Below are positions 8,180 to 46,473 of a stretch of DNA of 64,000 nucleotides, one piece after another. The stretch comes from Echinarachnius parma (lineage: Eukaryota; Echinodermata; Echinoidea; Clypeasteroida; Echinarachniidae). The stretch spans positions 1 through 64,000 of the forward strand of contig JBAMJV010008427.1 of NCBI GenBank assembly GCA_037951105.1. Direction: 5' to 3'. Each line of letters begins with the position of its first letter. Positions within the stretch are counted from its first letter, which is position 1. The notes under the pieces were generated by a model, which worked only from the letters and a program-made list of their open reading frames with translations, was not told the origin of the DNA and ran no database searches. Position numbers and translations under genes: made by a program.

Positions 8180-8291
8180 AGGTGGGCTGTACATCATACA
8201 GACCACCTCATAATTTCGTTAGAATTGCCTTTATTATTATTAGGTGGGCTGTACATCATACAGACCACCTCATAATTTCGTTAGAATTGCC

Positions 8292-8295
<4 letters not shown>
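8180..8295 (+). repeat. 54-bp hairpin module x2 (unit 1)
   Basis: Modules at 8,180-8,233 and 8,242-8,295 are separated by TTATTATT. Each begins AGGTGGGCTG, has a 9-nt loop and then CAGACCACCT, a 10-bp imperfect stem with one mismatch, and ends near tagaattgccttta. The first ten bases are the exact reverse complement of CAGCCCACCT next to the 3' hairpin of every unit. Confidence 0.85.
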
Positions 8296-8325
<30 letters not shown>

Positions 8326-8467
8326 CTTTATTTTTCTTATTTCCAATCACTTTTTTGTTACCAAGATAACTTGAAAATGGCTCAATCAAGTGCCTTGAAA
8401 TTTGGCACACATATATATAGGCATATGGACAAAGCAAAATAAGGTTTTGAACCCTGACCTTGACTGA

Positions 8468-8475
8468 TGACGTCA
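8468..8475. promoter_or_regulatory. CRE octamer (first of two per unit)
   Basis: The palindrome TGACGTCA is the full CREB/ATF consensus. It recurs here and at 9,113-9,120 in unit 1, and at both equivalent places in the other units, so the array holds about 40 perfect sites. Binding in vivo cannot be judged from sequence. Confidence 0.5.
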
Positions 8476-8604
8476 TCTAGGCGCCATTTTGTAAAATTTT
8501 CTGAATATCTTCTCATGATCATATCTTCATAACGAAAAGTTGTTTCTCATTCATATTTATCATGATCAAGGTCAATATCCGTCCGGTCAATTTCAGGTCA
8601 AAAA

Positions 8605-8644
8605 ACGCGCGCGCATGCGTACGTGCGCGCGTCAGCGCGCGCGC
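8605..8644. other. Alternating purine-pyrimidine (Z-DNA-prone) tract
   Basis: About 40 bp of almost pure CG, CA and TG dinucleotides in the first unit, with a second tract at 8,722-8,758. Both recur in every unit, in an otherwise AT-rich background. This pattern favours left-handed Z-DNA under negative supercoiling. Confidence 0.65.
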
Positions 8645-9486
8645 AAAATTTTAAAATGTTCAAAATCGTCGCAAATTCATTTTGGATACGTTTTGGGCCA
8701 TTTTAAGCATTTTATGAAAAAACGCGCACACGCGCATGCGCGCGCGTTTTCGCGCGTACTGGCATTTTGCAACATAGAATCGCCGAATTTTCTCTGTTAT
8801 CATATTTAGCCCATCTTTCCAAGCATTTTGATACCTTGTTCACCTTTTTCTGACTAGTAAAAACGCAATGAGCTTCCGTTCAAGAAACATGTCCGTGCGC
8901 GCGAGCTCTTGTAATACATAGCATATATGGGCAAAAACATGCCTATACAAAATTCATTGTAACTCTTCAGAATGGATGGGAACTCCCAAGTTTTTTTTCA
9001 TATTTGGATAGATTATGAGTCGGAGATATGATTTCATGTCTCATTTGATCCTCAATTAACTCATGGCGTCATCATAACGGCCTTCCAACTCAAAATTTCA
9101 ATTAGCATATTATGACGTCAGCATATTTTTGGAAAATTGATTGTATCTCTGTAAATGTTGATCGATTTTCTTCCAAATTTTGATATGTTCTAGCTCAGAC
9201 AATTTTCTACAAATGTAATAATTACGATTTTTCATTTTGACAAAGGCATCATGGCGTTTTTTTGCGATTTAAGGAGGCATGTCATTTTTTAACATTTTGC
9301 GTGTATTCTCTATGGGACATGACTTTTTTTCAAAACTGGATTCTACATTCCCGTCTTTCGCAACCAATATCTTCTTCGTTTTAGCTTCGTTTACGCTGAA
9401 CTTCGAGTATGTTGTAGCTGAGACAATAAGCTATCTCAAATGAGCCCTTGATTATGTCTTTAATTTTAGTTCGACCAGCCCACCTA

Positions 9487-9517
9487 TACTTGTTCTAAAC
9501 AAGTATTACAATTCTAG
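9487..9517 (+). repeat. Helitron-like 3' terminus (first of 20)
   Basis: An 8-bp perfect stem TACTTGTT/AACAAGTA with a 3-nt loop occupies 9,487-9,505. Twelve nucleotides follow, ending in CTAG (9,514-9,517), and then T. Canonical Helitrons end CTRR with a short hairpin about 10-12 nt upstream and insert before T. The same block closes all 20 units, with only a loop change in unit 16. Confidence 0.7.
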
Positions 9518-10714
9518 TTATTCTTTATTTTTCTTATTTCCAATCACTTTTTTGTTACCAAGATAACTTGAAAATGGCTCAATCAAGTGCCTTGAAATTT
9601 GGCACACATATATATAGGCATATGGACAAAGCAAAATAAGGTTTTGAACCCTGACCTTGACTGATGACGTCATCTAGGCGCCATTTTGTAAAATTTTCTG
9701 AATATCTTCTCATGATCATATCTTCATAACGAAAAGTTGTTTCTCATTCATATTTATCATGATCAAGGTCAATATCCGTCCGGTCAATTTCAGGTCAAAA
9801 AACGCGCGCGCATGCGTACGTGCGCGCGTCAGCGCGCGCGCAAAATTTTAAAATGTTCAAAATCGTCGCAAATTCATTTTGGATACGTTTTAGGCCATTT
9901 TAAGCATTTTACGAAAAAACGCGCACACGCGCATGCGCGCGCGTTTTCGCGCGTACTGGCATTTTGCAACATAGAATCGCCGAATTTTCTCTGTTATCAT
10001 ATTTAGCCCATCTTTCCAAGCATTTTGATACCTTGTTCACCTTTTTCTGACTAGTAAAAACGCAATGAGCTTCCGTTCAAGAAACATGTCCGTGCGCGCG
10101 AGCTCTTGTAATACATAGCATATATGGGCAAAAACATGCCTATACAAAATTCATTGTAACTCTTCAGAATGGATGGGAACTCCCAAGTTTTTTTTTCATA
10201 TTTGGATAGATTATGAGTCGGAGATATGATTTCATGTCTCATTTGATCCTCAATTAACTCATGGCGTCATCATAACGGCCTTCCAACTCAAAATTTCAAT
10301 TAGCATATTATGACGTCAGCATATTTTTGGAAAATTGATTGTATCTCTGTAAATGTTGATCGATTTTCTTCCAAATGTTGATATGTTCTAGCTCAGACAA
10401 TTTTCTACAAATGTAATGACCACGATTTTTCATTTTGACAAAGGCATCATGGCGTATTTTTGCGATTTAAGGAGGCATGTCATTTTTTAACATTTTGCGT
10501 GTATTCTCTATGGGACATGACTTTTTTTCAAAACTGGATTCTACATTCCCGTCTTTCGCGACCAATATCTTTTCGTTTTAGCTTCGTTTACGCTGAACTT
10601 CGAGTATGTTGTAGCTGAGACAATAAGCTATCTCAAATGAGCCCTTGATTATGTCTTTAATTTTAGTTCGACCAGCCCACCTATACTTGTTCTAAACAAG
10701 TATTACAATTCTAG
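9518..10714 (+). repeat. Array unit 2
   Basis: 1,197 bp, no module, type A centre. It has lost three bases in the block 'aatatcttcttcg' (reads aatatcttttcg). Confidence 0.85.
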
Positions 10715-11911
10715 TTATTCTTTATTTTTCTTATTTCCAATCACTTTTTTGTTACCACGATAACTTGAAAATGGCTCAATCAAGTACCTTGAAATTTGGC
10801 ACACATATATATAGGCATATGGACAAAGCAAAATAAGGTTTTGAACCCTGACCTTGACTGATGACGTCATCTAGGCGCCATTTTGTAAAATTTTCTGAAT
10901 ATCTTCTCATGATCATATCTTCATAACGAAAAGTTGTTTCTCATTCATATTTATCATGATCAAGGTCAATATCCGTCCGGTCAATTTCAGGTCAAAAAAC
11001 GCGCGCGCATGCGTACGTGCGCGCGTCAGCGCGCGCGCAAAATTTTAAAATGTTCAAAATCGTCGCAAATTCATTTTGGATACGTTTTAGGCCATTTTAA
11101 GCATTTTACGAAAAAACGCGCACACGCGCATGCGCGCGCGTTTTCGCGCGTACTGGCATTTTGCAACATAGAATCGCCGAATTTTCTCTGTTATCATATT
11201 TAGCCCATCTTTCCAAGCATTTTGATACCTTGTTCACCTTTTTCTGACTAGTAAAAACGCAATGAGCTTCCGTTCAAGAAACATGTCCGTGCGCGCGAGC
11301 TCTTGTAATACATAGCATATATGGGCAAAAACATGCCTATACAATATTCATTGTAACTCTTCAGAATGGATGGGAACTCCCAAGTTTTTTTTCATATTTG
11401 GATAGATTATGAGTCGGAGATATGATTTCATGTCTCATTTGACCCTCAATTAACTCATGGCGTCATCATAATGGCCTCCGAACTCAAAATTTCAATTTGC
11501 ATATTATGACGTCAGCATATTTTTGAAAAATTGATTGTATCTCTGTAAATGTTGATCGATTTTCTTCCAAATTTTGATATGTTCTAGCTCAGACAATTTT
11601 CTACAAATGTAATAACTACGATTTTTCATTTTGACAAAGGCATCATGGCGTATTTTTGCGATTTAAGGAGGTATGTCATTTTTTCACATTTTGCGTGTAT
11701 TCTCTATGGGACATGACTTTTTTTCAAAACTGGATTCTACATTCCCGTCTTTCGCGACCAATATCTTCTTCGTTTTAGCTTCGTTTACGCTGAACTTCGA
11801 GTATGTTGTAGCTGAGACAATAAGCTATCTCAAATGAGCCCTTGATTATGTCTTTAATTTTAGTTCGACCAGCCCACCTATACTTGTTCTAAACAAGTAT
11901 TACAATTCTAG
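10715..11911 (+). repeat. Array unit 3
   Basis: 1,197 bp, no module. Type B centre (atggcctccg) followed by an A-type right block (gctcagac): a mosaic unit. Confidence 0.85.
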
Positions 11912-13226
11912 TTATTATTAGGTGGGCTGTACATCATACAGACCACCTCATAATTTCGTTAGAATTGCCTTTATTAGGTGGGCTGTACATCATACAGACC
12001 ACCTCATAATTTCGTTAGAATTGCCTTTATTATTCTTTATTTTTCTTATTTCCAATCACTTTTTTGTTACCAAGATAACTTGAAAATGGCTCAATCAAGT
12101 GCCTTGAAATTTGGCACACATATATATAGGCATATGGACAAAGCAAAATAAGGTTTTGAACCCTGACCTTGACTGATGACGTCATCTAGGCGCCATTTTG
12201 TAAAATTTTCTGAATATCTTCTCATGATCATATCTTCATAACGAAAAGTTGTTTCTCATTCATATTTATCATGATCAAGGTCAATATCCGTCCGGTCAAT
12301 TTCAGGTCAAAAAACGCGCGCGCATGCGTACGTGCGCGCGTCAGCGCGCGCGCAAAATTTTAAAATGTTCAAAATCGTCGCAAATTCATTTTGGATACGT
12401 TTTAGGCCATTTTAAGCATTTTACGAAAAAACGCGCACACGCGCATGCGCGCGCGTTTTCGCGCGTACTGGCATTTTGCAACATAGAATCGCCGAATTTT
12501 CTCTGTTATCATATTTAGCCCATCTTTCCAAGCATTTTGATACCTTGTTCACCTTTTTCTGACTAGTAAAAACGCAATGAGCTTCCGTTCAAGAAACATG
12601 TCCGTGCGCGCGAGCTCTTGTAATACATAGCATATATGGGCAAAAACATGCCTATACAAAATTCATTGTAACGCTTCAGAATGGATGGGAACTCCCAAGT
12701 TTTTTTTCATATTTGGATAGATTATGAGTCGGAGATATGATTTCATGTCTCATTTGACCCTCAATTAACTCATGGCGTCATCATAATGGCCTCCGAACTT
12801 AAAATTTCAATTTGCATATTATGACGTCAGCATATTTTTGGAAAATTGATTGTATCTCTGTAAATGTTGATCGATTTTCTTCCAAATTTTGATATGTTCT
12901 AGCTGAGACAATTCTCTACAAATGTGATAATCAGAATTTTTCATTTTGACAAAGGCATCATGGCGTATTTTTGCGATTTAAGGAGGCATGTCATTTTTTA
13001 ACATTTTGCGTGTATTCTCTATGGGACATGACTTTTTTTCAAAACTGGATTCTACATTCCCGTCTTTCGCGACCAATATCTTCTTCGTTTTAGCTTCGTT
13101 TACGCTGAACTTCGAGTATGTTGTAGCTGAGACAATAAGCTATCTCAAATGAGCCCTTGATTATGTCTTTAATTTTAGTTCGACCAGCCCACCTATACTT
13201 GTTCTAAACAAGTATTACAATTCTAG
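11912..13226 (+). repeat. Array unit 4
   Basis: 1,315 bp with two modules at its left end. Type B centre with an intermediate right block (gctgagacaattctc). Confidence 0.85.
11920..12029 (+). repeat. 54-bp hairpin module x2 (unit 4)
   Basis: Two copies at 11,920-11,973 and 11,976-12,029, separated by TT only. Confidence 0.85.
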
Positions 13227-14417
13227 TTTATTTTTCTTATTTCCAATCACTTTTTTGTTAGCAAGATAACTTGAAAATGGCTCAATCAAGTGCCTTGAAA
13301 TTTGGCACACATATATATAGGCATATGGACAAAGCAAAATAAGGTTTTGAACCCTGACCTTGACTGATGACGTCATCTAGGCGCCATTTTGTAAAATTTT
13401 CTGAATATCTTCTCATGATCATATCTTCATAACGAAAAGTTGTTTCTCATTCATATTTATCATGATCAAGGTCAATATCCGTCCGGTCAATTTCAGGTCA
13501 AAAAACGCGCGCGCATGCGTACGTGCGCGCGTCAGCGCGCGCGCAAAATTTTAAAATGTTCAAAATCGTCGCAAATTCATTTTGGATACGTTTTAGGCCA
13601 TTTTAAGCATTTTACGAAAAAACGCGCACACGCGCATGCGCGCGCGTTTTCGCGCGTACTGGCATTTTGCAACATAGAATCGCCGAATTTTCTCTGTTAT
13701 CATATTTAGCCCATCTTTCCAAGCATTTTGATACCTTGTTCACCTTTTTCTGACTAGTAAAAATGCAATGAGCTTCCGTTCAAGAAACATGTCCGTGCGC
13801 GCGAGCTCTTGTAATACATAGCATATATGGGCAAAAACATGCCTATACAAAATTCATTGTAACTCTTCAGAATGGATGGGAACTCCCAAGTTTTTTTTCA
13901 TATTTGGATAGATTATGAGTCGGAGATATGATTTCATGTCTCATTTGACCCTCAATTAACTCATGGCGTCATCATAATGGCCTCCGAACTCAAAATTTCA
14001 ATTTGCATATTATGACGTCAGCATATTTTTTGAAAATTTATTGTATCTCTGTAAATATTGATCGATTTTCTTCCAAATTTTGATATGTTCTATCTGAGAC
14101 AATTCTCTACAAATGTGATGATCACGATTTTTCATGTTGACAAAGGCATCATGGCGTATTTTTGCGATTTAAGGAGGTATGTCATTTTTTCACATTTTGC
14201 GTGTATTCTCTATGGGACATGACTTTTTTTCAAAACTGGATTCTACATTCCCGTCTTTCGCGACCAATATCTTCTTCGTTTTAGCTTCGTTTACGCTGAA
14301 CTTCGAGTATGTTGTAGCTGAGACAATAAGCTATCTCAAATGAGCCCTTGATTATGTCTTTAATTTTAGTTCGACCAGCCCACCTATACTTGTTCTAAAC
14401 AAGTATTACAATTCTAG
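13227..14417 (+). repeat. Array unit 5
   Basis: 1,191 bp. The junction is shortened to CTAG directly followed by tttatttttc. Type B centre and B right block (tatctgag). Confidence 0.85.
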
Positions 14418-15608
14418 TTTATTTTTCTTATTTCCAATCACTTTTTTGTTAGCAAGATAACTTGAAAATGGCTCAATCAAGTGCCTTGAAATTTGGCACA
14501 CATATATATAGGCATATGGACAAAGCAAAATAAGGTTTTGAACCCTGACCTTGACTGATGACGTCATCTAGGCGCCATTTTGTAAAATTTTCTGAATATC
14601 TTCTCATGATCATATCTTCATAACGAAAAGTTGTTTCTCATTCATATTTATCATGATCAAGGTCAATATCCGTCCGGTCAATTTCAGGTCAAAAAACGCG
14701 CGCGCATGCGTACGTGCGCGCGTCAGCGCGCGCGCAAAATTTGAAAATGTTCAAAATCGTCGCAAATTCATTTTGGATACGTTTTAGGCCATTTTAAGCA
14801 TTTTACGAAAAAACGCGCACACGCGCATGCGCGCGCGTTTTCGCGCGTACTGGCATTTTGCAACATAGAATCGCCGAATTTTCTCTGTTATCATATTTAG
14901 CCCATCTTTCCAAGCATTTTGATACCTTGTTCACCTTTTTCTGACTAGTAAAAACGCAATGAGCTTCCGTTCAAGAAACATGTCCGTGCGCGCGAGCTCT
15001 TGTAATACATAGCATATATGGGCAAAAACATGCCTATACAAAATTCATTGTAACTCTTCAGAATGGATGGGAACTCCCAAGTTTTTTTTCATATTTGGAT
15101 AGATTATGAGTCGGAGATATGATTTCATGTCTCATTTGACCCTCAATTAACTCATGGCGTCATCATAATGGCCTCCGAACTCAAAATTTCAATTTGCATA
15201 TTATGACGTCAGCATATTTTTGGAAAATTGATTGTATCTCTGTAAATGTTGATCGATTTTCTTCCAAATTTTGATATGTTCTATCTGAGACAATTTTCTA
15301 CAAATGTGATGATCACGATTTTTCATTTTGACAAAGGCATCATGGCGTATTTTTGCGATTTAAGGAGGCATGTCATTTTTTAACATTTTGCGTGTATTCT
15401 CTATGGGACATGACTTTTTTTCAAAACTGGATTCTACATTCCCGTCTTTCGCGACCAATATCTTCTTCGTTTTAGCTTCGTTTACGCTGAACTTCGAGTA
15501 TGTTGTAGCTGAGACAATAAGCTATCTCAAATGAGCCCTTGATTATGTCTTTAATTTTAGTTCGACCAGCCCACCTATACTTGTTCTAAACAAGTATTAC
15601 AATTCTAG
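14418..15608 (+). repeat. Array unit 6
   Basis: 1,191 bp, type B. One T to G change (aaatttgaaaatg) creates a stop in the frame that is open in most other units, evidence that the frame is not under protein selection. Confidence 0.85.
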
Positions 15609-16818
15609 TTTATTATTATTATTATTCTTTATTTTTCTTATTTCCAATCACTTTTTTGTTAGCAAGATAACTTGAAAATGGCTCAATCAAGTGCCTTGAA
15701 ATTTGGCACACATATATATAGGCATATGGACAAAGCAAAATAAGGTTTTGAACCCTGACCTTGACTGATGACGTCATCTAGGCGCCATTTTGTAAAATTT
15801 TCTGAATATCTTCTCATGATCATATCTTCATAACGAAAAGTTGTTTCTCATTCATATTTATCATGATCAAGGTCAATATCCGTCCGGTCAATTTCAGGTC
15901 AAAAAACGCGCGCGCATGCGTACGTGCGCGCGTCAGCGCGCGCGCAAAATTTTAAAATGTTCAAAATCGTCGCAAATTCATTTTGGATACGTTTTAGGCC
16001 ATTTTAAGCATTTTACGAAAAAACGCGCACACGCGCATGCGCGCGCGTTTTCGCGCGTACTGGCATTTTGCAACATAGAATCGCCGAATTTTCTCTGTTA
16101 TCATATTTAGCCCATCTTTCCAAGCATTTTGATACCTTGTTCACCTTTTTCTGACTAGTAAAAACGCAATGAGCTTCCGTTCAAGAAACATGTCCGTGCG
16201 CGCGAGCTCTTGTAATACATAGCATATATGGGCAAAAACATGCCTATACAAAATTCATTGTAACTCTTCAGAATGGATGGGAACTCCCAAGTTTTTTTTC
16301 ATATTTGGATAGATTATGAGTCGGAGATATGATTTCATGTCTCATTTGACCCTCAATTAACTCATGGCGTCATCATAATGGCCTCCGAACTCAAAATTTC
16401 AATTTGCATATTATGACGTCAGCATATTTTTGGAAAATTGATTGTATCTCTGTAAATGTTGATCGATTTTCTTCCAAATTTTGATATGTTCTAGCTCAGA
16501 CAATTTTCTACAAATGTAATAACCACGATTTTTCATTTTGACAAAGGCATCATGGCGTATTTTTGCGATTTAAGGAGGCATGTCATTTTTTAACATTTTG
16601 CGTGTATTCTCTATGGGACATGACTTTTTTTCAAAACTGGATTCTACATTCCCGTCTTTCGCGACCAATATCTTCTTCGTTTTAGCTTCGTTTACGCTGA
16701 ACTTCGAGTATGTTGTAGCTGAGACAATAAGCTATCTCAAATGAGCCCTTGATTATGTCTTTAATTTTAGTTCGACCAGCCCACCTATACTTGTTCTAAA
16801 CAAGTATTACAATTCTAG
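15609..16818 (+). repeat. Array unit 7
   Basis: 1,210 bp, type B centre with A-type right block. The junction carries an expanded TTA run. Confidence 0.85.
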
Positions 16819-18026
16819 TTTATTTATTATTATTCTTTATTTTTCTTATTTCCAATCACTTTTTTGTTAGCAAGATAACTTGAAAATGGCTCAATCAAGT
16901 GCCTTGAAATTTGGCACACATATATATAGGCATATGGACAAAGCAAAATAAGGTTTTGAACCCTGACCTTGACTGATGACGTCATCTAGGCGCCATTTTG
17001 TAAAATTTTCTGAATATCTTCTCATGATCATATCTTCATAACGAAAAGTTGTTTCTCATTCATATTTATCATGATCAAGGTCAATATCCGTCCGGTCAAT
17101 TTCAGGTCAAAAAACGCGCGCGCATGCGTACGTGCGCGCGTCAGCGCGCGCGCAAAATTTTAAAATGTTCAAAATCGTCGCAAATTCATTTTGGATACGT
17201 TTTAGGCCATTTTAAGCATTTTACGAAAAAACGCGCACACGCGCATGCGCGCGCGTTTTCGCGCGTACTGGCATTTTGCAACATAGAATCGCCGAATTTT
17301 CTCTGTTATCATATTTAGCCCATCTTTCCAAGCATTTTGATACCTTGTTCACCTTTTTCTGACTAGTAAAAACGCAATGAGCTTCCGTTCAAGAAACATG
17401 TCCGTGCGCGCGAGCTCTTGTAATACATAGCATATATGGGCAAAAACATGCCTATACAAAATTCATTGTAACTCTTCAGAATGGATGGGAACTCCCAAGT
17501 TTTTTTTCATATTTGGATAGATTATGAGTCGGAGATATGATTTCATGTCTCATTTGATCCTCAATTAACTCATGGCGTCATCATAATGGCCTCCGAACTC
17601 AAAATTTCAATTTGCATATTATGACGTCAGCATATTTTTGGAAAATTTATTGTATCTCTGTAAATATTGATCGATTTTCTTCCAAATTTTGATATGTTCT
17701 ATCTGAGACAATTCTCTACAAATGTGATGATCACGATTTTTCATTTTGACAAAGGCATCATGGCGTATTTTTGCGATTTAAGGAGGCATGTCATTTTTTT
17801 ACATTTTGCGTGTATTCTCTATGGGACATGACTTTTTTTCAAAACTGGATTCTACATTCCCGTCTTTCGCGACCAATATCTTCTTCGTTTTAGCTTCGTT
17901 TACGCTGAACTTCGAGTATGTTGTAGCTGAGACAATAAGCTATCTCAAATGAGCCCTTGATTATGTCTTTAATTTTAGTTCGACCAGCCCACCTATACTT
18001 GTTCTAAACAAGTATTACAATTCTAG
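16819..18026 (+). repeat. Array unit 8
   Basis: 1,208 bp, type B throughout. It shares aaatttattg, aatattgatc and tttttttacattt with unit 10, two units away. Confidence 0.85.
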
Positions 18027-19233
18027 TTTATTTATTATTATTCTTTATTTTTCTTATTTCCAATCACTTTTTTGTTAGCAAGATAACTTGAAAATGGCTC
18101 AATCAAGTGCCTTGAAATTTGACACACATATATATAGGCATGTGGACAAAGCAAAATAAGGTTTTGAACCCTGACCTTGACTGATGACGTCATCTAGGCG
18201 CCATTTTGTAAAATTTTCTGAATATCTTCTCATGATCATATCTTCATAACGAAAAGTTGTTTCTCATTCATATTTATCATGATCAAGGTCAATATCCGTC
18301 CGGTCAATTTCAGGTCAAAAAACGCGCGCGCATGCGTACGTGCGCGCGTCAGCGCGCGCGCAAAATTTTAAAATGTTCAAAATCGTCTCAAATTCATTTT
18401 GGATACGTTTTAGGCCATTTTAAGCATTTTACGAAAAAACGCGCACACGCGCATGCGCGCGCGTTTTCGCGCGTACTGGCATTTTGCAACATAGAATCGC
18501 CGAATTTTCTCTGTTATCATATTTAGCCCATCTTTCCAAGCATTTTGATACCTTGTTCACCTTTTTCTGACTAGTAAAAACGCAATGAGCTTCCGTTCAA
18601 GAAACATGTCCGTGCGCGCGAGCTCTTGTAATACATAGCATATATGGGCAAAAACATGCCTATACAAAAATCATTGTAATTCTTCAGAATGGATGGGAAC
18701 TCCCAATTTTTTTTCATATTTAGATAGATTATGAGTCGGAGATATGATTTCATGTCTCATTTGACCCTCAATTAACTCATGGCGTCATCATAACGGCCTT
18801 CCAACTCAAAATTTCAATTAGCATATTATGACGTCAGCATATTTTTGGAAAATTGATTGTATCTCTGTAAATGTTGATCGATTTTCTTCCAAATTTTGAT
18901 ATGTTCTAGCTCAGACAATTTTCTACAAATGTAATAACCACGATTTTTCATTTTGACAAAGGCATCATGGCGTATTTTTGCGATTTAAGGAGGCATGTCA
19001 TTTTTTAACATTTTGCGTGTATTCTCTATGGGACATGACTTTTTTTCAAAACTGGATTCTACATTCCCGTCTTTCGCGACCAATATCTTCTTCGTTTTAG
19101 CTTCGTTTACGCTGAACTTCGAGTATGTTGTAGCTGAGACAATAAGCTATCTCAAATGAGCCCTTGATTATGTCTTTAATTTTAGTTCGACCAGCCCACC
19201 TATACTTGTTCTAAACAAGTATTACAATTCTAG
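18027..19233 (+). repeat. Array unit 9
   Basis: 1,207 bp, type A. Its private changes (tttgacacac, aggcatgtgg, cgtctcaaatt, caaaaatcattg, atttagatag) recur together only in unit 15, marking a local block duplication. Confidence 0.85.
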
Positions 19234-20441: not shown

Positions 20442-21705
20442 TTTATTAGGTGGGCTGTACATCATACAGACCACCTCATAATTTCGTTAGAATTGCCTTT
20501 ATTTATTATTATTATTTATTTTTCTTATTTCCAATCACTTTTTTGTTAGCAAGATAACTTGAAAATGGCTCAATCAAGTGCCTTGAAATTTGGCACACAT
20601 ATATATAGGCATATGGACAAAGCAAAATAAGGTTTTGAACCCTGACCTTGACTGATGACGTCATCTAGGCGCCATTTTGTAAAATTTTCTGAATATCTTC
20701 TCATGATCATATCTTCATAACGAAAAGTTGTTTCTCATTCATATTTATCATGATCAAGGTCAATATCCGTCCGGTCAATTTCAGGTCAAAAAACGCGCGC
20801 GCATGCGTACGTGCGCGCGTCAGCGCGCGCGCAAAATTTTAAAATGTTCAAAATCGTCGCAAATTCATTTTGGATACGTTTTAGGCCATTTTAAGCATTT
20901 TACGAAAAAACGCGCACACGCGCATGCGCGCGCGTTTTCGCGCGTACTGGCATTTTGCAACATAGAATCGCCGAATTTTCTCTGTTATCATATTTAGCCC
21001 ATCTTTCCAAGCATTTTGATACCTTGTTCACCTTTTTCTGACTAGTAAAAACGCAATGAGCTTCCGTTCAAGAAACATGTCCGTGCGCGCGAGCTCTTGT
21101 AATACATAGCATATATGGGCAAAAACATGCCTATACAAAATTCATTGTAACTCTTCAGAATGGATGGGAACTCCCAAGTTTTTTTTCATATTTGGATAGA
21201 TTATGAGTCGGAGATATGATTTCATGTCTCATTTGACCCTCAATTAACTCATGGCGTCATCATAACGGCCTTCCAACTCAAAATTACAATTAGCATATTA
21301 TGACGTCAGCATATTTTTGGAAAATTGATTGTATCTCTGTAAATGTTGATCGATTTTCTTCCAAATTTTGATATGTTCTAGCTCAGACAATTTTCTACAA
21401 ATGTAATAACCACGATTTTTCATTTTGACAAAGGCATCATGGCGTATTTTTGCGATTTAAGGAGGCATGTCATTTTTTAACATTTTGCGTGTATTCTCTA
21501 TGGGACATGACTTTTTTTCAAAACTGGATTCTACATTCCCGTCTTTCGCGACCAATATCTTCTTCGTTTTAGCTTCGTTTACACTGAACTTCGAGTATGT
21601 TGTAGCTGAGACAATAAGCTATCTCAAATGAGCCCTTGATTATGTCTTTAATTTTAGTTCGACCAGCCCACCTATACTTGTTCTAAACAAGTATTACAAT
21701 TCTAG
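20442..21705 (+). repeat. Array unit 11
   Basis: 1,264 bp with one left-end module. Type A. Its junction with the module reads tttattattattatttatttttc. Confidence 0.85.
20448..20501 (+). repeat. 54-bp hairpin module x1 (unit 11)
   Basis: A single copy, directly after CTAG and a short TTA stretch. Confidence 0.85.
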
Positions 21706-22911
21706 TTATTATTATTATTCTTTATTTTTCTTATTTCCAATCACTTTTTTGTGAGCAAGATAACTTGAAAATGGCTCAATCAAGTGCCTTGAAATTTGGC
21801 ACACATATATATAGGCATATGGACAAAGCAAAATAAGGTTTTGAACCCTGACCTTGACTGATGACGTCATCTAGGCGCCATTTTGTAAAATTTTCTGAAT
21901 ATCTTCTCATGATCATATCTTCATAACGAAAAGTTGTTTCTCATTCATATTTATCATGATCAAGGTCAATATCCGTCCGGTCAATTTCAGGTCAAAAAAC
22001 GCGCGCGCATGCGTACGTGCGCGCATCAGCGCGCGCGCAAAATTTTAAAATGTTCAAAATCGTCGCAAATTCATTTTGGATACGTTTTAGGCCATTTTAA
22101 GCATTTTACGAAAAAACGCGCACACGCGCATGCGCGCGCGTTTTCGCGCGTACTGGCATTTTGCAACATAGAATCGCCGAATTTTCTCTGTTATCATATT
22201 TAGCCCATCTTTCCAAGCATTTTGATACCTTGTTCACCTTTTTCTGACTAGTAAAAACGCAATGAGCTTCCGTTCAAGAAACATGTCCGTGCGCGCGAGC
22301 TCTTGTAATACATAGCATATATGGGCAAAAACATGCCTATACAAAATTCATTGTAACTCTTCAGAATGGATGGGAACTCCCAAGTTTTTTTTCATATTTG
22401 GATAGATTATGAGTCGGAGATATGATTTCATGTCTCATTTGACCCTCAATTAACTCATGGCGTCATCATAATGGCCTCCGAACTCAAAATTTCAATTTGC
22501 ATATTATGACGTCAGCATATTTTTGGAAAATTTATTGTATCTCTGTAAATGTTGATCGATTTTCTTCCAAATTTTGATATGTTCTAGCTCAGACAATTTT
22601 CTACAAATGTAATAACCACGATTTTTCATTTTGACAAAGGCATCATGGCGTATTTTTGCGATTTAAGGAGGCATGTCATTTTTTAACATTTTGCGTGTAT
22701 TCTCTATGGGACATGACTTTTTTTCAAAACTGGATTCTACATTCCCGTCTTTCGCGACCAATATCTTCTTCGTTTTAGCTTCGTTTACGCTGAACTTCGA
22801 GTATGTTGTAGCTGAGACAATAAGCTATCTCAAATGAGCCCTTGATTATGTCTTTAATTTTAGTTCGACCAGCCCACCTATACTTGTTCTAAACAAGTAT
22901 TACAATTCTAG
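21706..22911 (+). repeat. Array unit 12
   Basis: 1,206 bp. B centre with A right block. It carries gcgcgcatcagcg where others have gcgcgcgtcagcg, slightly shortening the alternating CG tract. Confidence 0.85.
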
Positions 22912-24120
22912 TTATTATTATTATTATTCTTTATTTTTCTTATTTCCAATCACTTTTTTGTTAGCAAGATAACTTGAAAATGGCTCAATCAAGTGCCTTG
23001 AAATTTGGCACACATATATATAGGCATATGGACAAAGCAAAATAAGGTTTTGAACCCTGACCTTGACTGATGACGTCATCTAGGCGCCATTTTGTAAAAT
23101 TTTCTGAATATCTTCTCATGATCATATCTTCATAACGAAAAGTTGTTTCTCATTCATATTTATCATGATCAAGGTCAATATCCGTCCGGTCAATTTCAGG
23201 TCAAAAAACGCGCGCGCATGCGTACGTGCGCGCGTTAGCGCGCGCGCAAAATTTTAAAATGTTCAAAATCGTCGCAAATTCATTTTGGATACGTTTTAGG
23301 CCATTTTAAGCATTTTATGAAAAAACGCGCACACGCGCATGCGCGCGCGTTTTCGCGCGTACTGGCATTTTGCAACATAGAATCGCCGAATTTTCTCTGT
23401 TATCATATTTAGCCCATCTTTCCAAGCATTTTGATACCTTGTTCACCTTTTTCTGACTAGTAAAAACGCAATGAGCTTCCGTTCAAGAAACATGCCCGTG
23501 CGCGCGAGCTCTTGTAATACATAGCATATATGGGCAAAAACATGCCTATACAAAATTCATTGTAACTCTTCAGAATGGATGGGAACTCCCAAGTTTTTTT
23601 TCATATTTGGATAGATTATGAGTCGGAGATATGATTTCATGTCTCATTTGACCCTCAATTAACTCATGGCGTCATCATAATGGCCTCCGAACTCAAAATT
23701 TCAATTTGCATATTATGACGTCAGCATATTTTTGGAAAATTGATTGTATCTCTGTAAATGTTGATCGATTTTCTTCCAAATTTTGATATGTTCTAGCTGA
23801 GACAATTCTCTACAAATGTGATAATCACGATTTTTCATTTTGACAAAGGCATCATGGCGTATTTTTGCGATTTAAGGAGGCATGTCATTTTTTAACATTT
23901 TGCGTGTATTCTCTATGGGACATGACTTTTTTTCAAAACTGGATTCTACATTCCCCTCTTTCGCGACCAATATCTTCTTCGTTTTAGCTTCGTTTACGCT
24001 GAACTTCGAGTATGTTGTAGCTGAGACAATAAGCTATCTCAAATGAGACCTTGATTATGTCTTTAATTTTAGTTCGACCAGCCCACCTATACTTGTTCTA
24101 AACAAGTATTACAATTCTAG
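22912..24120 (+). repeat. Array unit 13
   Basis: 1,209 bp, type B. A C to T change (gcgcgttagcg) puts a stop in the otherwise shared frame. Confidence 0.85.
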
Positions 24121-25332
24121 TTATTATTATTATTATTATTCTTTATTTTTCTTATTTCCAATCACTTTTTTGTTAGCAAGATAACTTGAAAATGGCTCAA
24201 TCAAGTGCCTTGAAATTTGGCACACATATATATAGGCATATGGACAAAGCAAAATAAGGTTTTGAACCCTGACCTTGACTGATGACGTCATCTAGGCGCC
24301 ATTTTGTAAAATTTTCTGAATATCTTCTCATGATCATATCTTCATAACGAAAAGTTGTTTCTCATTCATATTTATCATGATTAAGGTCAATATCCGTCCG
24401 GTCAATTTCAGGTCAAAAAACGCGCGCGCATGCGTACGTGCGCGCGTCAGCGCGCGCGCAAAATTTTAAAATGTTCAAAATCGTCGCAAATTCATTTTGG
24501 ATACGTTTTAGGCCATTTTAAGCATTTTACGAAAAAACGCGCACACGCGCATGCGCGCGCGTTTTCGCGCGTACTGGCATTTTGCAACATAGAATCGCCG
24601 AATTTTCTCTGTTATCATATTTAGCCCATCTTTCCAAGCATTTTGATACCTTGTTCACCTTTTTCTGACTAGTAAAAACGCAATGAGCTTCCGTTCAAGA
24701 AACATGTCCGTGCGCGCGAGCTCTTGTAATACATAGCATATATGGGCAAAAACATGCCTATACAAAATTCATTGTAACTCTTCAGAATGGATGGGAACTC
24801 CCAAGTTTTTTTTCATATTTGGATAGATTATGAGTCGGAGATATGATTTCATGTCTCATTTGACCCTCAATTAACTCATGGCGTCATCATAATGGCCTCC
24901 GAACTCAAAATTTCAATTTGCATATTATGACGTCAGCATATTTTTGGAAAATTTATTGTATCTCTGTAAATATTGATCGATTTTCTTCCAAATTTTGATA
25001 TGTTCTAGCTCAGACAATTCTCTACAAATGTAATAATCACGATTTTTCATTTTGACAAAGGCATCATGGCGTATTTTTGCGATTTAAGGAGGCATGTCAT
25101 TTTTTAACATTTTGCGTGTATTCTCTATGGGACATGACTTTTTTTCAAAACTGGATTCTACATTCCCGTCTTTCGCGACCAATATCTTCTTCGTTTTAGC
25201 TTCGTTTACGCTGAACTTCGAGTATGTTGTAGCTGAGACAATAAGCTATCTCAAATGAGCCCTTGATTATGTCTTTAATTTTAGTTCGACCAGCCCACCT
25301 ATACTTGTTCTAAACAAGTATTACAATTCTAG
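24121..25332 (+). repeat. Array unit 14
   Basis: 1,212 bp, type B centre with a mixed right block. A change to catgattaagg puts a TAA into the shared frame. Confidence 0.85.
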
Positions 25333-26535
25333 TTTATTATTATTCTTTATTTTTCTTATTTCCAATCACTTTTTTGTTAGCAAGATAACTTGAAAATGGC
25401 TCAATCAAGTGCCTTGAAATTTGACACACATATATATAGGCATGTGGACAAAGCAAAATAAGGTTTTGAACCCTGACCTTGACTGATGACGTCATCTAGG
25501 CGCCATTTTGTAAAATTTTCTGAATATCTTCTCATGATCATATCTTCATAACGAAAAGTTGTTTCTCATTCATATTTATCATGATCAAGGTCAATATCCG
25601 TCCGGTCAATTTCAGGTCAAAAAACGCGCGCGCATGCGTACGTGCGCGCGTCAGCGCGCGCGCAAAATTTTAAAATGTTCAAAATCGTCTCAAATTCATT
25701 TTGGATACGTTTTAGGCCATTTTAAGCATTTTACGAAAAAACGCGCACACGCGCATGCGCGCGCGTTTTCGCGCGTACTGGCATTTTGCAACATAGAATC
25801 GCCGAATTTTCTCTGTTATCATATTTAGCCCATCTTTCCAAGCATTTTGATACCTTGTTCACCTTTTTCTGACTAGTAAAAACGCAATGAGCTTCCGTTC
25901 AAGAAACATGTCCGTGCGCGCGAGCTCTTGTAATACATAGCATATATGGGCAAAAACATGCCTATACAAAAATCATTGTAATTCTTCAGAATGGATGGGA
26001 ACTCCCAATTTTTTTTCATATTTAGATAGATTATGAGTCGGAGATATGATTTCATGTCTCATTTGACCCTCAATTAACTCATGGCGTCATCATAACGGCC
26101 TTCCAACTCAAAATTTCAATTAGCATATTATGACGTCAGCATATTTTTGGAAAATTGATTGTATCTCTGTAAATGTTGATCGATTTTCTTCCAAATTTTG
26201 ATATGTTCTAGCTCAGACAATTTTCTACAAATGTAATAACCACGATTTTTCATTTTGACAAAGGCATCATGGCGTATTTTTGCGATTTAAGGAGGCATGT
26301 CATTTGTTAACATTTTGCGTGTATTCTCTATGGGACATGACTTTTTTTCAAAACTGGATTCTACATTCCCGTCTTTCGCGACCAATATCTTCTTCGTTTT
26401 AGCTTCGTTTACGCTGAACTTCGAGTATGTTGTAGCTGAGACAATAAGCTATCTCAAATGAGCCCTTGATTATGTCTTTAATTTTAGTTCGACCAGCCCA
26501 CCTATACTTGTTCTAAACAAGTATTACAATTCTAG
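25333..26535 (+). repeat. Array unit 15
   Basis: 1,203 bp, type A, near twin of unit 9. First of six units (15-20) that alternate A, B, A, B, A, B. Confidence 0.85.
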
Positions 26536-27810
26536 TTATTATTAGGTGGGCTGTACATCATACAGACCACCTCATAATTTCGTTAGAATTGCCTTTATTT
26601 ATTTATTTATTTATTATTCTTTATTTTTCTTATTTCCAATCACTTTTTTGTTAGCAAGATAACTTGAAAATGGCTCAATCAAGTGCCTTGAAATTTGGCA
26701 CACATATATATAGGCATATGGACAAAGCAAAATAAGGTTTTGAACCCTGACCTTGACTGATGACGTCATCTAGGCGCCATTTTGTAAAATTTTCTGAATA
26801 TCTTCTCATGATCATATCTTCATAACGAAAAGTTGTTTCTCATTCATATTTATCATGATCAAGGTCAATATCCGTCCGGTCAATTTCAGGTCAAAAAACG
26901 CGCGCGCATGCGTACGTGCGCGCGTCAGCGCGCGCGCAAAATTTTAAAATGTTCAAAATCGTCGCAAATTCATTTTGGATACGTTTTAGGCCATTTTAAG
27001 CATTTTACGAAAAAACGCGCACACGCGCATGCGCGCGCGTTTTCGCGCGTACTGGCATTTTGCAACATAGAATCGCCGAATTTTCTCTGTTATCATATTT
27101 AGCCCATCTTTCCAAGCATTTTGATACCTTGTTCACCTTTTTCTGACTAGTAAAAACGCAATGAGCTTCCGTTCAAGAAACATGTCCGTGCGCGCGAGCT
27201 CTTGTAATACATAGCATATATGGGCAAAAACATGCCTATACAAAATTCATTGTAACTCTTCAGAATGGATGGGAACTCCCAAGTTTTTTTTCATATTTGG
27301 ATAGATTATGAGTCGGAGATATGATTTCATGTCTCATTTGATCCTCAATTAACTCATGGCGTCATCATAATGGCCTCCGAACTCAAAATTTCAATTTGCA
27401 TATTATGACGTCAGCATATTTTTGGAAAATTTATTGTATCTCTGTAAATGTTGATCGATTTTCTTCCAAATTTTGATATGTTCTATCTGAGACAATTCTC
27501 TACAAATGTGATGATCACGATTTTTCATTTTGACAAAGGCATCATGGCGTATTTTTGCGATTTAAGGAGGTATGTCATTTTTTCACATTTTGCGTGTATT
27601 CTCTATGGGACATGACTTTTTTTCAAAACTGGATTCTACATTCCCGTCTTTCGCGACCAATATCTTCTTCGTTTTAGCTTCGTTTACGCTAAACTTCGAG
27701 TATGTTGTAGCTGAGACAATAAGCTATCTCAAATGAGCCCTTGATTATGTCTTTAATTTTAGTTCGACCAGCCCACCTATACTTGTTCGAAACAAGTATT
27801 ACAATTCTAG
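26536..27810 (+). repeat. Array unit 16
   Basis: 1,275 bp with one module and an expanded TTTA run. Type B. The 3' hairpin loop is changed from CTA to CGA while both stem arms are intact. Confidence 0.85.
26544..26597 (+). repeat. 54-bp hairpin module x1 (unit 16)
   Basis: A single copy between CTAG-TTATTATT and a TTTA-type run. Confidence 0.85.
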
Positions 27811-29260
27811 TTATTATTATTAGGTGGGCTGTACATCATACAGACCACCTCATAATTTCGTTAGAATTGCCTTTATTTATTAGGTGGGCTGTACATCATA
27901 CAGACCACCTCATAATTTCGTTAGAATTGCCTTTATTAGGTGGGCTGTACATCATACAGACCACCTCATAATTTCGTTAGAATTGCCTTTATTAGGTGGG
28001 CTGTACATCATACAGACCACCTCATAATTTCGTTAGAATTGCCTTTATTTATTTATTATTATTATTATTCTTTATTTTTCTTATTTCCAATCACTTTTTT
28101 GTTAGCAAGAAAACTTGAAAATGGCTCAATCAAGTGCCTTGAAATTTGGCACACATATATATAGGCATATGGACAAAGCAAAATAAGGTTTTGAACCCTG
28201 ACCTTGACTGATGACGTCATCTAGGCGCCATTTTGTAAAATTTTCTGAATATCTTCTCATGATCATATCTTCATAACGAAAAGTTGTTTCTCATTCATAT
28301 TTATCATGATCAAGGTCAATATCCGTCCGGTCAATTTCAGGTCAAAAAACGCGCGCGCATGCGTACGTGCGCGCGTCAGCGCGCGCGCAAAATTTTAAAA
28401 TGTTCAAAATCGTCGCAAATTCATTTTGGATACGTTTTAGGCCATTTTAAGCATTTTACGAAAAAACGCGCACACGCGCATGCGCGCGCGTTTTCGCGCG
28501 TACTGGCATTTTGCAACATAGAATCGCCGAATTTTCTCTGTTATCATATTTAGCCCATCTTTCCAAGCATTTTGATACCTTGTTCACCTTTTTCTGACTA
28601 GTAAAAACGCAATGAGCTTCCGTTCAAGAAACATGTCCGTGCGCGCGAGCTCTTGTAATACATAGCATATATGGGCAAAAACATGCCTATACAAAATTCA
28701 TTGTAACTCTTCAGAATGGATGGGAACTCCCAATTTTTTTTCATATTTGGATAGATTATGAGTCGGAGATATGATTTCATGTCTCATTTGACCCTCAATT
28801 AACACATGGCGTCATCATAACGGCCTTCCAACTCAAAATTTCAATTAGCATATTATGACGTCAGCATATTTTTGGAAAATTGATTGTATCTCTGTAAATG
28901 TTGATCGATTTTCTTCCAAATTTTGATATGTTCTAGCTCAGACAATTTTCTACAAATATAATAACCACGATTTTTCATTTTGACAAAGGCATCATGGCGT
29001 ATTTTTGCGATTTAAGGAGGCATGTCATTTTTTAACATTTTGCGTGTATTCTCTATGGGACATGACTTTTTTTCAAAACTGGATTCTACATTCCCGTCTT
29101 TCGCGACCAATATCTTCTTCGTTTTAGCTTCGTTTACGCTGAACTTCGAGTATGTTGTAGCTGAGACAATAAGCTATCTCAAATGAGCCCTTGATTATGT
29201 CTTTAATTTTACTTCGACCAGCCCACCTATACTTGTTCTAAACAAGTATTACAATTCTAG
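27811..29260 (+). repeat. Array unit 17
   Basis: 1,450 bp, the longest unit, because its left end carries four tandem modules. Type A core. Confidence 0.85.
27822..28047 (+). repeat. 54-bp hairpin module x4 (unit 17)
   Basis: Four copies start at 27,822, 27,882, 27,938 and 27,994. The spacers vary by TTA/TTTA units, suggesting serial addition of a left end rather than one duplication. Confidence 0.85.
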
Positions 29261-30469
29261 TTATTATTATTATTATTCTTTATTTTTCTTATTTCCAATC
29301 ACTTTTTTGTTAGCAAGATAACTTGAAAATGGCTCAATCAAGTGCCTTGAAATTTGGCACACATATATATAGGCATATGGACAAAGCAAAATAAGGTTTT
29401 GAACCCTGACCTTGACTGATGACGTCATCTAGGCGCCATTTTGTAAAATTTTCTGAATATCTTCTCATGATCATATCTTCATAACGAAAAGTTGTTTCTC
29501 ATTCATATTTATCATGATCAAGGTCAATATCCGTCCGGTCAATTTCAGGTCAAAAAACGCGCGCGCATGCGTACGTGCGCGCGTCAGCGCGCGCGCAAAA
29601 TTTTAAAATGTTCAAAATCGTCGCAAATTCATTTTGGATACGTTTTAGGCCATTTTAAGCATTTTACGAAAAAACGCGCACACGCGCATGCGCGCGCGTT
29701 TTCGCGCGTACTGGCATTTTGCAACATAGAATCGCCGAATTTTCTCTGTTATCATATTTAGCCCATCTTTCCAAGCATTTTGATACCTTGTTCACCTTTT
29801 TCTGACTAGTAAAAACGCAATGAGCTTCCGTTCAAGAAACATGTCCGTGCGCGCGAGCTCTTGTAATACATAGCATATATGGGCAAAAACATGCCTATAC
29901 AAAATTCATTGTAACTCTTCAGAATGGATGGGAACTCCCAAGTTTTTTTTCATATTTGGATAGATTATGAGTCGGAGATATGATTTCATGTCTCATTTGA
30001 CCCTCAATTAACTCATGGCGTCATCATAATGGCCTCCGAACTCAAAATTTCAATTTGCATATTATGACGTCAGCATATTTTTGGAAAATTTATTGTATCT
30101 CTGTAAATATTGATTGATTTTCTTCCAAATTTTAATATGTTCTATCTGAGACAATTCTCTACAAATGTGATGATCACGATTTTTCATTTTGACAAAGGCA
30201 TCATGGCGTATTTTTGCGATTTAAGGAGGCATGTCATTTTTTAACATTTTGCGTGTATTCTCTATGGGACATGACTTTTTTTCAAAACTGGATTCTACAT
30301 TCCCGTCTTTCGCGACCAATATCTTCTTCGTTTTAGCTTCGTTTACGCTGAACTTCGAGTATGTTGTAGCTGAGACAATAAGCTATCTCAAATGAGCCCT
30401 TGATTATGTCTTTAATTTTAGTTCGACCAGCCCACCTATACTTGTTCTAAACAAGTATTACAATTCTAG
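29261..30469 (+). repeat. Array unit 18
   Basis: 1,209 bp, type B, no module. Confidence 0.85.
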
Positions 30470-31666
30470 TTATTCTTTATTTTTCTTATTTCCAATCACT
30501 TTTTTGTTAGCAAGATAACTTGAAAATGGCTCAATCAAGTGCCTTGAAATTTGGCACACATATATATAGGCATATGGACAAAGCAAAATAAGGTTTTGAA
30601 CCCTGACCTTGACTGATGACGTCATCTAGGCGCCATTTTGTAAAATTTTCTGAATATCTTCTCATGATCATATCTTCATAACGAAAAGTTGTTTCTCATT
30701 CATATTTATCATGATCAAGGTCAATATCCGTCCGGTCAATTTCAGGTCAAAAAACGCGCGCGCATGCGTACGTGCGCGCGTCAGCGCGCGCGCAAAATTT
30801 TAAAATGTTCAAAATCGTCGCAAATTCATTTTGGATACGTTTTAGGCCATTTTAAGCATTTTACGAAAAAACGCGCACACGCGCATGCGCGCGCGTTTTC
30901 GCGCGTACTGGCATTTTGCAACATAGAATCGCCGAATTTTCTCTGTTATCGTATTTAGCCCATCTTTCCAAGCATTTTGATACCTTGTTCACCTTTTTCT
31001 GACTAGTAAAAACGCAATGAGCTTCCGTTCAAGAAACATGTCCGTGCGCGCGAGCTCTTGTAATACATAGCATATATGGGCAAAAACATGCCTATACAAA
31101 ATTCATTGTAACTCTTCAGAATGGATGGGAACTCCCAAGTTTTTTTTCATATTTGGATAGATTATGAGTCGGAGATATGATTTCATGTCTCATTTGACCC
31201 TCAATTAACTCATGGCGTCATCATAACGGCCTTCCAACTCAAAATTTCAATTAACATATTATGACGTCAGCATATTTTTGGAAAATTGATTGTATCTCTG
31301 TAAATGTTGATCGATTTTCTTCCAAATTTTGATATGTTCTAGCTCAGACAATTTTCTACAAATGTAATAATCACGATTTTTCATTTTGACAAAGGCATCA
31401 TGGCGTATTTTTGCGATTTAAGGAGGCATGTCATTTTTTAACATTTTGCGTGTATTCTCTATGGGACATGACTTTTTTTCAAAACTGGATTCTACATTCC
31501 CGTCTTTCGCGACCAATATCTTCTTCGTTTTAGCTTCGTTTACGCTGAACTTCGAGTATGTTGTAGCTGAGACAATAAGCTATCTCAAATGAGCCCTTCA
31601 TTGTGTCTTTAATTTTAGTTCGACCAGCCCACCTATACTTGTTCTAAACAAGTATTACAATTCTAG
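30470..31666 (+). repeat. Array unit 19
   Basis: 1,197 bp, type A, no module, with several private changes (ttatcgtattt, ttaacatatt). Confidence 0.85.
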
Positions 31667-32863
31667 TTATTCTTTATTTTTCTTATTTCCAATCACTTTT
31701 TTGTTAGCAAGATAACTTGAAAATGGCTCAATCAAGTGCCTTGAAATTTGGCACACATATATATAGGCATATGGACAAAGCAAAATAAGGTTTTGAACCC
31801 TGACCTTGACTGATGACGTCATCTAGGCGCCATTTTGTAAAATTTTCTGAATATCTTCTCATGATCATATCTTCATAACGAAAAGTTGTTTCTCATTCAT
31901 ATTTATCATGATCAAGGTCAATATCCGTCCGGTCAATTTCAGGTCAAAAAACGCGCGCGCATGCGTACGTGCGCGCGTCAGCGCGCGCGCAAAATTTTAA
32001 AATGTTCAAAATCGTCGCAAATTCATTTTGGATACGTTTTAGGCCATTTTAAGCATTTTACGAAAAAACGCGCACACGCGCATGCGCGCGCGTTTTCGCG
32101 CGTACTGGCATTTTGCAACATAGAATCGCCGAATTTTCTCTGTTATCATATTTAGCCCATCTTTCCAAGCATTTTGATACCTTGTTCACCTTTTTCTGAC
32201 TAGTAAAAACGCAATGAGCTTCCGTTCAAGAAACATGTCCGTGCGCGCGAGCTCTTGTAATACATAGCATATATGGGCAAAAACATGCCTATACAAAATT
32301 CATTGTAACTCTTCAGAATGGATGGGAACTCCCAAGTTTTTTTTCATATTTGGATAGATTATGAGTCGGAGATATGATTTCATGTCTCATTTGATCCTCA
32401 ATTAACTCATGGCGTCATCATAATGGCCTCCGAACTCAAAATTTCAATTTGCATATTATGACGTCAGCATATTTTTGGAAAATTTATTGTATCTCTGTAA
32501 ATGTTGATTGATTTTCTTCCAAATTTTGATATGTTCTAGCTCAGACAATTTTCTACAAATGTATTAACCACGATTTTTCATTTTGACAAAAGCATCATGG
32601 CGTATTTTTGCGATTTAAGGAGGCATGTCATTTTTTAACATTTTGCGTGTATTCTCTATGGGACATGACTTTTTTTCAAAACTGGATTCTACATTCCCGT
32701 CTTTCGCGACTAATATCTTCTTCGTTTTAGCTTCGTTTACGCTGAACTTCGAGTATGTTGTAGCTGAGACAATAAGCTATCTCAAATGAGCCCTTGATTA
32801 TGTCTTTAATTTTAGTTCGACCAGCCCACCTATACTTGTTCTAAACAAGTATTACAATTCTAG
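31667..32863 (+). repeat. Array unit 20
   Basis: 1,197 bp, type B centre with A right block. Last unit. It ends in the normal CTAG and runs into the TTA microsatellite that borders the next element. Confidence 0.85.
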
Positions 32864-46393: not shown

Positions 46394-46473
46394 TGTCACC
46401 AAAATATCGGAAGATTTTGCCGACCCATTTTCTCCAGTAATAATTGAAAATGTGTATGTTTGACAGTCCATTA

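Follow-up and report, generated by a model that had tools for sequence, protein, structure and literature searches.

Tandem arrays of a probable non-autonomous Helentron, with a putative autonomous partner inside them, in Echinarachnius parma

Helentrons and satellite DNA are often linked, and canonical Helitrons take the position between A and T as their target. HINE/DINE-1 elements have subterminal inverted repeats (subTIRs), a microsatellite and a 3′ palindrome, with a further inverted repeat nested in the 5′ subTIR in DINE-1, and they enter a TT target without duplicating it, with Ts at both of their ends (Thomas et al. 2014, PMC4067079). For one HINE family, the subTIRs are given as identical over 11 bp (PMC4067079). 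Here we describe an array of 20 head-to-tail units at positions 8180–32863 of contig JBAMJV010008427.1 of Echinarachnius parma (assembly GCA_037951105.1), within an analysed stretch of 64,000 nt that we call the window. The unit is probably a non-autonomous Helentron (HINE), and its copies would together form the array as a composite with a single register; we put the probability of this reading at roughly 0.68. A preliminary description of this DNA had attributed the array to units of a rolling-circle transposon, which our results support. It had also named a Helentron-like family as an alternative to a Helitron, and this alternative was right.

Several described systems combine rolling-circle transposons with tandem repetition. 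Tandem Helitrons are known in plants and bats (PMC5876387), and three tandem copies were found in a fungus (PMC5148889). Many arrays of the plant tandem Cen-Helitrons have multiple 5′ ends and a single 3′ end, which a terminator-loss model explains (Xiong et al. 2016, as told in PMC12628747). Satellite monomers of oyster that resemble Helitrons matched central repeats (PMC11136912). Cg_HINE of the Pacific oyster has HINE anatomy together with tandem repeats, and its target is T-rich with TT preferred (PMC7492417). In Cg_HINE, however, the repeats form an inner array (consensus 138–181 nt) between a left and a right flank, and the authors found no autonomous element that could be tied to it. 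In E. parma, the repeated unit includes the 3′ end itself, and a partner was identified.

All 20 units of the window array lie on the + strand; none of the three modules was found on the minus strand of the window at up to 8 differences. Coordinates and copy number are as the preliminary description had given them. The repeated unit is about 1.2 kb long, with a body of 1.19 kb. Unit bodies are 97.9–100% identical (i.e. they differ by at most 2.1%), and the 42-nt 3′ end is exact in 19 of the 20 units, with one loop change in the remaining unit. A short tract resembling TT(ATT)n separates each 3′ end from the next body and in places includes between one and four 50-nt left modules; the array has 10 exact left modules versus 20 3′ ends. 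The features of the array, including the starts of all ten left modules, are as follows.

8180..32863, + strand: whole array of 20 units, with a single outer 5′ end (left module after ATAATT) and a single outer 3′ end (CTAG, then TTATTATT)
8180..8229, + strand: left module at the outer 5′ end of the array, with the 5′ subTIR AGGTGGGCTG within an imperfect inverted repeat
8242..8291, + strand: second left module
8292..8323, + strand: TTTATT/ATT microsatellite of unit 1, between left module and body
8324..9517, + strand: body of unit 1 together with its 3′ end; counted from 8330 this is 1188 nt (other window units 1187–1188 nt)
9476..9517, + strand: 3′ end module of unit 1, with the 3′ subTIR CAGCCCACCT, 9-bp hairpin, TACAATT and CTAG; 19 exact copies in the array
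11920..12025, + strand: two internal left modules (starts 11920 and 11976)
20448..20497, + strand: internal left module
26544..26593, + strand: internal left module
27769..27810, + strand: 3′ end of the 16th unit, with one change in the hairpin loop
27822..28043, + strand: four left modules in a run (starts 27822, 27882, 27938 and 27994)
32822..32863, + strand: outer 3′ end of the array

Solo copies elsewhere in the genome have the order TT, left module, TTTATT/ATT microsatellite, body, CAGCCCACCT, 9-bp hairpin, TACAATT, CTAG, TT. The sequence beside the 3′ hairpin had been described as the inverse of the first ten bases of the left module, and CAGCCCACCT is indeed the exact reverse complement of AGGTGGGCTG. 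The two match perfectly over 10 bp, or 11 with the T that precedes the left module. The 3′ module as a whole reads CAGCCCACCT, hairpin, TACAATTCTAG, and folds into a 9-bp stem closed by a loop of 3 nt, with 7 nt between the stem and CTAG; the hairpin ends 11 nt from the 3′ end. The hairpin and CTAG had thus been seen correctly, but the stem is 9 bp rather than 8 and the spacing 7 nt rather than 12. Fold z scores are −4.96 for the 3′ module and −5.05 for the left module, and 0 of 200 shuffles fold as well. Both the subTIRs and the 3′ palindrome are those of a HINE, and so is the absence of coding capacity: the six frames of one unit (9504–10699) gave no Pfam matches at E ≤ 0.1.

In canonical Helitrons a 3′ hairpin is followed by CTRR, and the unit has a hairpin, 7 nt and CTAG, as does Helraiser in having CTAG after its 3′ hairpin (PMC5876387). 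Unlike Helraiser and canonical Helitrons, however, the element described here has no 5′ TC, a TT target, subTIRs and an endonuclease in its partner. The 5′ end begins with AGG directly after TT, and these two features (TT target and AGG without TC) rule out a canonical Helitron.

The preliminary description had suggested a search for solo copies of the 1.2-kb unit and held that without dispersed copies the array would be an ordinary satellite. Dispersed copies were found. We read eight single-unit insertions (L020, L021, L040–L045), each with one left module and all with different flanks, as well as a copy on contig C554 with two units and two left modules. A 3′-end pattern with another preceding base matched at one place, where a regular copy, two or more units long, has one change. 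TT lies against the outer ends at 17 of 17 5′ flanks and 13 of 13 3′ flanks, counting distinct fetched loci with internal rows dropped. The automatic list had TT at 19/19 and 14/14; the dropped 5′ rows are L003 (after a diverged left module) and the L056 group (internal and preceded by a mutated 3′ end), and the dropped 3′ row is L005 (internal). The background frequency of TT, taken from the window outside the array, is 0.11. Three of the 13 outer 3′ flanks open with an ATT microsatellite. The diverged left module at L003 (AGGTGGGCTATATGACCCATACAGACCACC, before position 1501), directly 5′ of the young one, represents an older related subfamily.

For the joined flanks of L021 (178 nt), a first look gave 1056 candidates; 40 were scored, and all of them match over the full length at 98–99% identity. 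Three empty sites were read out: they carry GTTATATTTATGG, compared with GTTATATTT, the element and TTATGG at the filled site, and have one TT fewer. Insertion at this site therefore either duplicated the TT or added two Ts carried by the element, with no other change. At least two Ts thus stand on each side with no further change in the target, as for a HINE. Insertion between A and T, or between T and T, without target duplication had been anticipated; TT and the clean empty site agree with this, while an A/T target does not hold.

A genome search with the Rep family (PF14214) returned 52 matches, and in one group of these the open frame reaches about 4,700 codons. On contig C379, this frame (L069 and L071, one open frame) has OTU, Rep (PF14214) and PIF1 (PF05970) matches, and an endonuclease match (PF03372, 1.3e-13) downstream of the helicase. 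The Rep motif EFQQRGSPHVH has S before PH, the Helentron form of motif 2. With a predicted Rep, PIF1 helicase and fused endonuclease, and this form of motif 2, the frame is that of a Helentron. In addition, L069 (C379:154000-163500) has a duplicated N-terminal part with two OTU and two Herpes_teg_N-like matches and a repeated YANPHFRQQHKA peptide array.

The ends of this Helentron are those of the unit. On the minus strand of contig C2449, beyond the stop codon, lie a left end and 1.13 kb of body that are 96.2–98.5% identical to window units, and the match at L074 is an exact left module. The last 592 nt of the unit, with the CTAG end, occur at 97.8% identity 31.5 kb from this left end. The Rep match sits between both ends on the plus strand, opposite to the ends. 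The unit 3′ end also closes the Helentron copies on C379 and C2953 (215 nt at 99.5% in each), C7572 (603 nt at 96.7%) and C3745 (159 nt at 99.4%). Five Helentron copies therefore share 159–603 nt with the unit at 96.7–99.5% identity, against a threshold of at least 80% over the last 60 bp for an autonomous partner. The copies also resemble each other: over about 3.2 kb of the 5′ part, C2953 and C7572 are 99.5% and 99.2% identical to C2449, and the region 5′ of the 3′ end is 96.5–98.9% identical to C379 in three other copies. The Helentron body departs from the unit 82 nt before the unit's end, and unit sequence resumes 215 nt (C379, C2953), 592 nt (C2449) or 603 nt (C7572) before the Helentron 3′ end, so the HINE looks like a deletion derivative of the Helentron. 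The unit had been expected to depend on a partner, recognizable as a Rep/helicase element with the last 40 bp in common. This is supported: the 31.5-kb Rep/PIF1/endonuclease Helentron has ends 96–99.5% identical to those of the unit. All of the HINE/DINE-1 features listed above are thus found here, and the autonomous partner is near-identical, as in that group, for which a partner whose gene lies in reverse orientation is described as well (PMC4067079). The differences are that whole units stand in long head-to-tail arrays, most of them without the 5′ module, and that the partner lies inside arrays.

Several other Rep genes were rejected as the partner. The families of C501 and C623 have PIF1 without endonuclease in the frames scanned, and neither strand of the 5.4 and 4.0 kb examined for them has ends in common with the unit. 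No common ends were found beside the Rep genes of C659, C136, C7174 and C12471 on either strand (3.0–3.5 kb each). L075, the first stretch examined for the other end of the Helentron, had no end in it. Eleven Rep matches of 226.5–226.8 bits, on C501, C1260, C2757 and eight further contigs, form a separate Helitron-type family, with PIF1 and no endonuclease in the C501 frames scanned. On the minus strand of L074, the unit-like part is followed, inside the Helentron, by a tRNA-like stretch with what looks by eye like a B-box-like motif; ARAGORN finds no tRNA there.

Helentron copies were also found within arrays of HINE units. On C379 (L010), C7572 (L081) and C2953 (L082), the CTAG of the Helentron leads directly into a TT(ATT)n tract, after which HINE bodies continue in register, and C7572 and C2953 have HINE units 5′ of the Helentron as well. 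On these two contigs, the Helentron body starts straight after the upstream CTAG and TT(ATT)n, without a left module of its own. Contig C379 stops before the Helentron left end. Since Helentron and HINE units adjoin in this way, the 31.5-kb and 1.2-kb elements have one common register. The spacers at the joins between Helentron and array differ among the three contigs.

Across the genome (1.2 Gb in 14,790 contigs), there are 1420 left modules and 1443 3′ ends when at most 3 mismatches are allowed. Reversed-pattern controls gave 0 for the left module, the 3′ end and all junction types, which excludes chance. We considered the similar numbers of left modules and 3′ ends as a rule, and dropped it because left modules multiply in runs. 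Counting exact letters and gaps of at most 30 nt, there are 307 junctions from a 3′ end to a left module, 853 from a 3′ end to a body and 760 from one left module to another. The 3′ end is kept and the left module absent at 853 of the 1160 internal unit junctions (about 74%). Subtracting the junctions leaves about 353 5′ ends and 283 3′ ends as outer ends; these figures and the percentage are rough, as exact and 3-mismatch counts are mixed. More than one left module was seen in none of the eight solo copies and at seven of the eight array 5′ ends (Fisher 0.0014), a count that leaves out C9767 (diverged module in front), C3745 (unit number undefined) and arrays whose 5′ end is outside the sequence read.

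We compared the units within and between arrays using 99 units by position from 23 places (20 from the window, 36 from C201 and 1–10 from each of the others), those outside the window being taken from fetched stretches. Identity within arrays exceeded identity between arrays by 0.056 points, a difference matched or exceeded in 444 of 2000 permutations (579 of 2000 without C201). Neighbouring units in the window are not more alike than distant ones (permutation P = 0.95). That identity is the same within and between arrays speaks for stepwise addition of units rather than a single recent concatemer produced by read-through. Mosaicism and polymorphism were examined in 92 bodies after removing identical units of one contig, a step that lowers within-array identity. 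The window bodies are mosaics, with at least eleven recombination intervals at 24 sites, and at 21 of the 25 sites polymorphic in the window both alleles are also present elsewhere.

These results suggest the following course of events for a composite of HINE copies. The Helentron protein would nick at the 5′ module, displace a strand and stop at one of the 3′ hairpins, and one or several units could move as one insertion, from the start of a 5′ module to a CTAG end. Arrays would grow stepwise as further copies, or circles, are added at the TT(ATT)n that separates a 3′ end from a body, either by self-targeted insertion or by homologous exchange with circles. Exchange between the TTATT tracts that flank them may remove or multiply 5′ modules, and unequal exchange may contribute local duplications. 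We would go further only tentatively, at somewhat worse than even odds: the TT-rich microsatellite and 3′ junction may be a preferred docking site for copies and circles. The array would then be a growing composite transposon that recruits units genome-wide, may carry its own Helentron and could be mobilized in blocks, each running from any one of its 5′ modules to any one of its 3′ hairpins.

A number of observations weigh against the composite. The addition of units to arrays is a step that we infer rather than demonstrate. The 20 3′ ends and 10 left modules of the window mean that insertion alone does not balance, and all 20 window bodies are uninterrupted despite many TT sites, unlike the prediction for untargeted insertion. 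Seventeen consecutive left modules with a repeating spacer pattern at C975:74251-75209 form a minisatellite of the 5′ module, and with runs of this length left modules must also multiply locally. Local duplication is further indicated by C201, which has a 7.2-kb period of six units with six identical unit pairs, and by nearest relatives, which lie in the same array for 19 of the 36 units of C201 and 8 of the 20 in the window. (On C396, the left modules at 28201 and 36739 and those at 29460 and 37998 are both 8538 nt apart, possibly a higher-order repeat as on C201.) Window units at even lags are more alike than those at odd lags by 0.19 points (53 of 5000 permutations), a pattern spotted post hoc over eight lags; this two-unit periodicity is a hint of growth by pairs. 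A suffix (ballot) test of array order does not discriminate, with 83% of random orders passing it; two segments failed it on exact-match lists.

Further points concern the partner. The ends and gene of the Helentron were pieced together from several copies. C2449 and C3745 have a right flank in common that is identical over 250 nt, with differing left sides, and may therefore represent a single insertion that the assembly contains twice. The Helentron–array joins of C379, C7572 and C2953 may go back to fewer than three separate events. Finally, the Helentron site on C2449 has TT, yet differs from uninserted relatives by a further 81 nt. The host repeat at that site is a satellite of inverted (palindromic) repeats spaced by about 346 nt, and the same satellite was seen at L090 (C1832:210440-210940), L089 (C13634) and C1832:244040-249877.

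Self-targeted nested insertion might by itself have built the arrays, with copies entering the TTATT microsatellite between left module and body, which would stack the left modules at the front and leave later units without one. Such a process accounts for junctions without a left module and for mixed unit sequences, for runs of left modules at array ends and their absence from solos, for Helentrons in arrays without a left module and for the two-unit copy on C554 with its two left modules. This process should, however, give every array one left module per 3′ end, and the window has half that number. It also requires a strong preference for the microsatellite, whereas just 3/13 outer 3′ flanks open with one, and no window body is interrupted. 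Because left modules multiply on their own and bodies are uninterrupted, nested insertion alone is insufficient, and we consider it doubtful as the whole explanation.

Less likely still is growth by satellite dynamics, i.e. a HINE insertion duplicated by unequal crossing-over and homogenized by gene conversion, with no transposition in growth. The six-unit period of C201, the relatives within its array, the mosaic window units and their weak two-unit periodicity are all to be expected under this scheme. Against it, identity within arrays is not above that between arrays, window neighbours are no closer than distant units, arrays lie on many contigs and every outer end read is against TT. An ordinary satellite is ruled out by the eight dispersed solo copies and by the equal identity within and between arrays.

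The preliminary description had noted that long uniform arrays could be left by rolling-circle replication reading past its terminator. In the simplest case, a HINE circle would be copied repeatedly past its 3′ hairpin and the multimer inserted once. Minimal joined ends (CTAG-TT-AGGTGG) do occur, and these and the 307 junctions from 3′ end to left module resemble circle joints; for Helraiser, circular forms whose ends are joined have been reported, and for FoHeli1 they are suggested by polymerase chain reaction. A concatemer of this kind should have started from identical units with a left module each, but divergence among window units reaches 2.1%, and they resemble units of other arrays as much as each other. 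In addition, the left module is missing from 853 of the 1160 exact internal junctions. A multi-unit template could soften the objection from unit divergence. In its simple form the read-through is unsupported, and we regard it as improbable. An assembly artefact, in which solo copies were falsely chained, is very improbable even in a genome of 14,790 contigs, as many contigs have arrays of differing unit counts and sequences and the 1160 exact junctions are in one register.

The window contains other repeats downstream of the array. Two large arrays of a 15-nt unit (GACAAATGCTCCGCC) lie at 38297-38749 and 45869-46402 in opposite orientation, 7.2–7.7 kb apart. They are 94–95% complementary over 222–365 nt and look like a foldback-type element. 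Between them, at 40888-41869, are degenerate C-rich tandem repeats around CCCCCCTCGAAAAATCTTCACCGACA.

Returning to the described systems, the arrays of E. parma resemble Cen-Helitrons in being tandem arrays of a rolling-circle transposon and differ in having many 3′ ends and fewer 5′ ends (PMC12628747). This is the reverse of the plant case and does not fit the terminator-loss model as told in that paper. In the open-licence literature searched, we found no report of arrays whose units retain the 3′ end but lack the 5′ module and which include an autonomous Helentron. As the partner, solo copies, an empty site and arrays all occur in one genome with near-identical ends, the question of how a transposon becomes a satellite is directly testable here. 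A transposon family can thus build satellite-like DNA with ends that still look intact.

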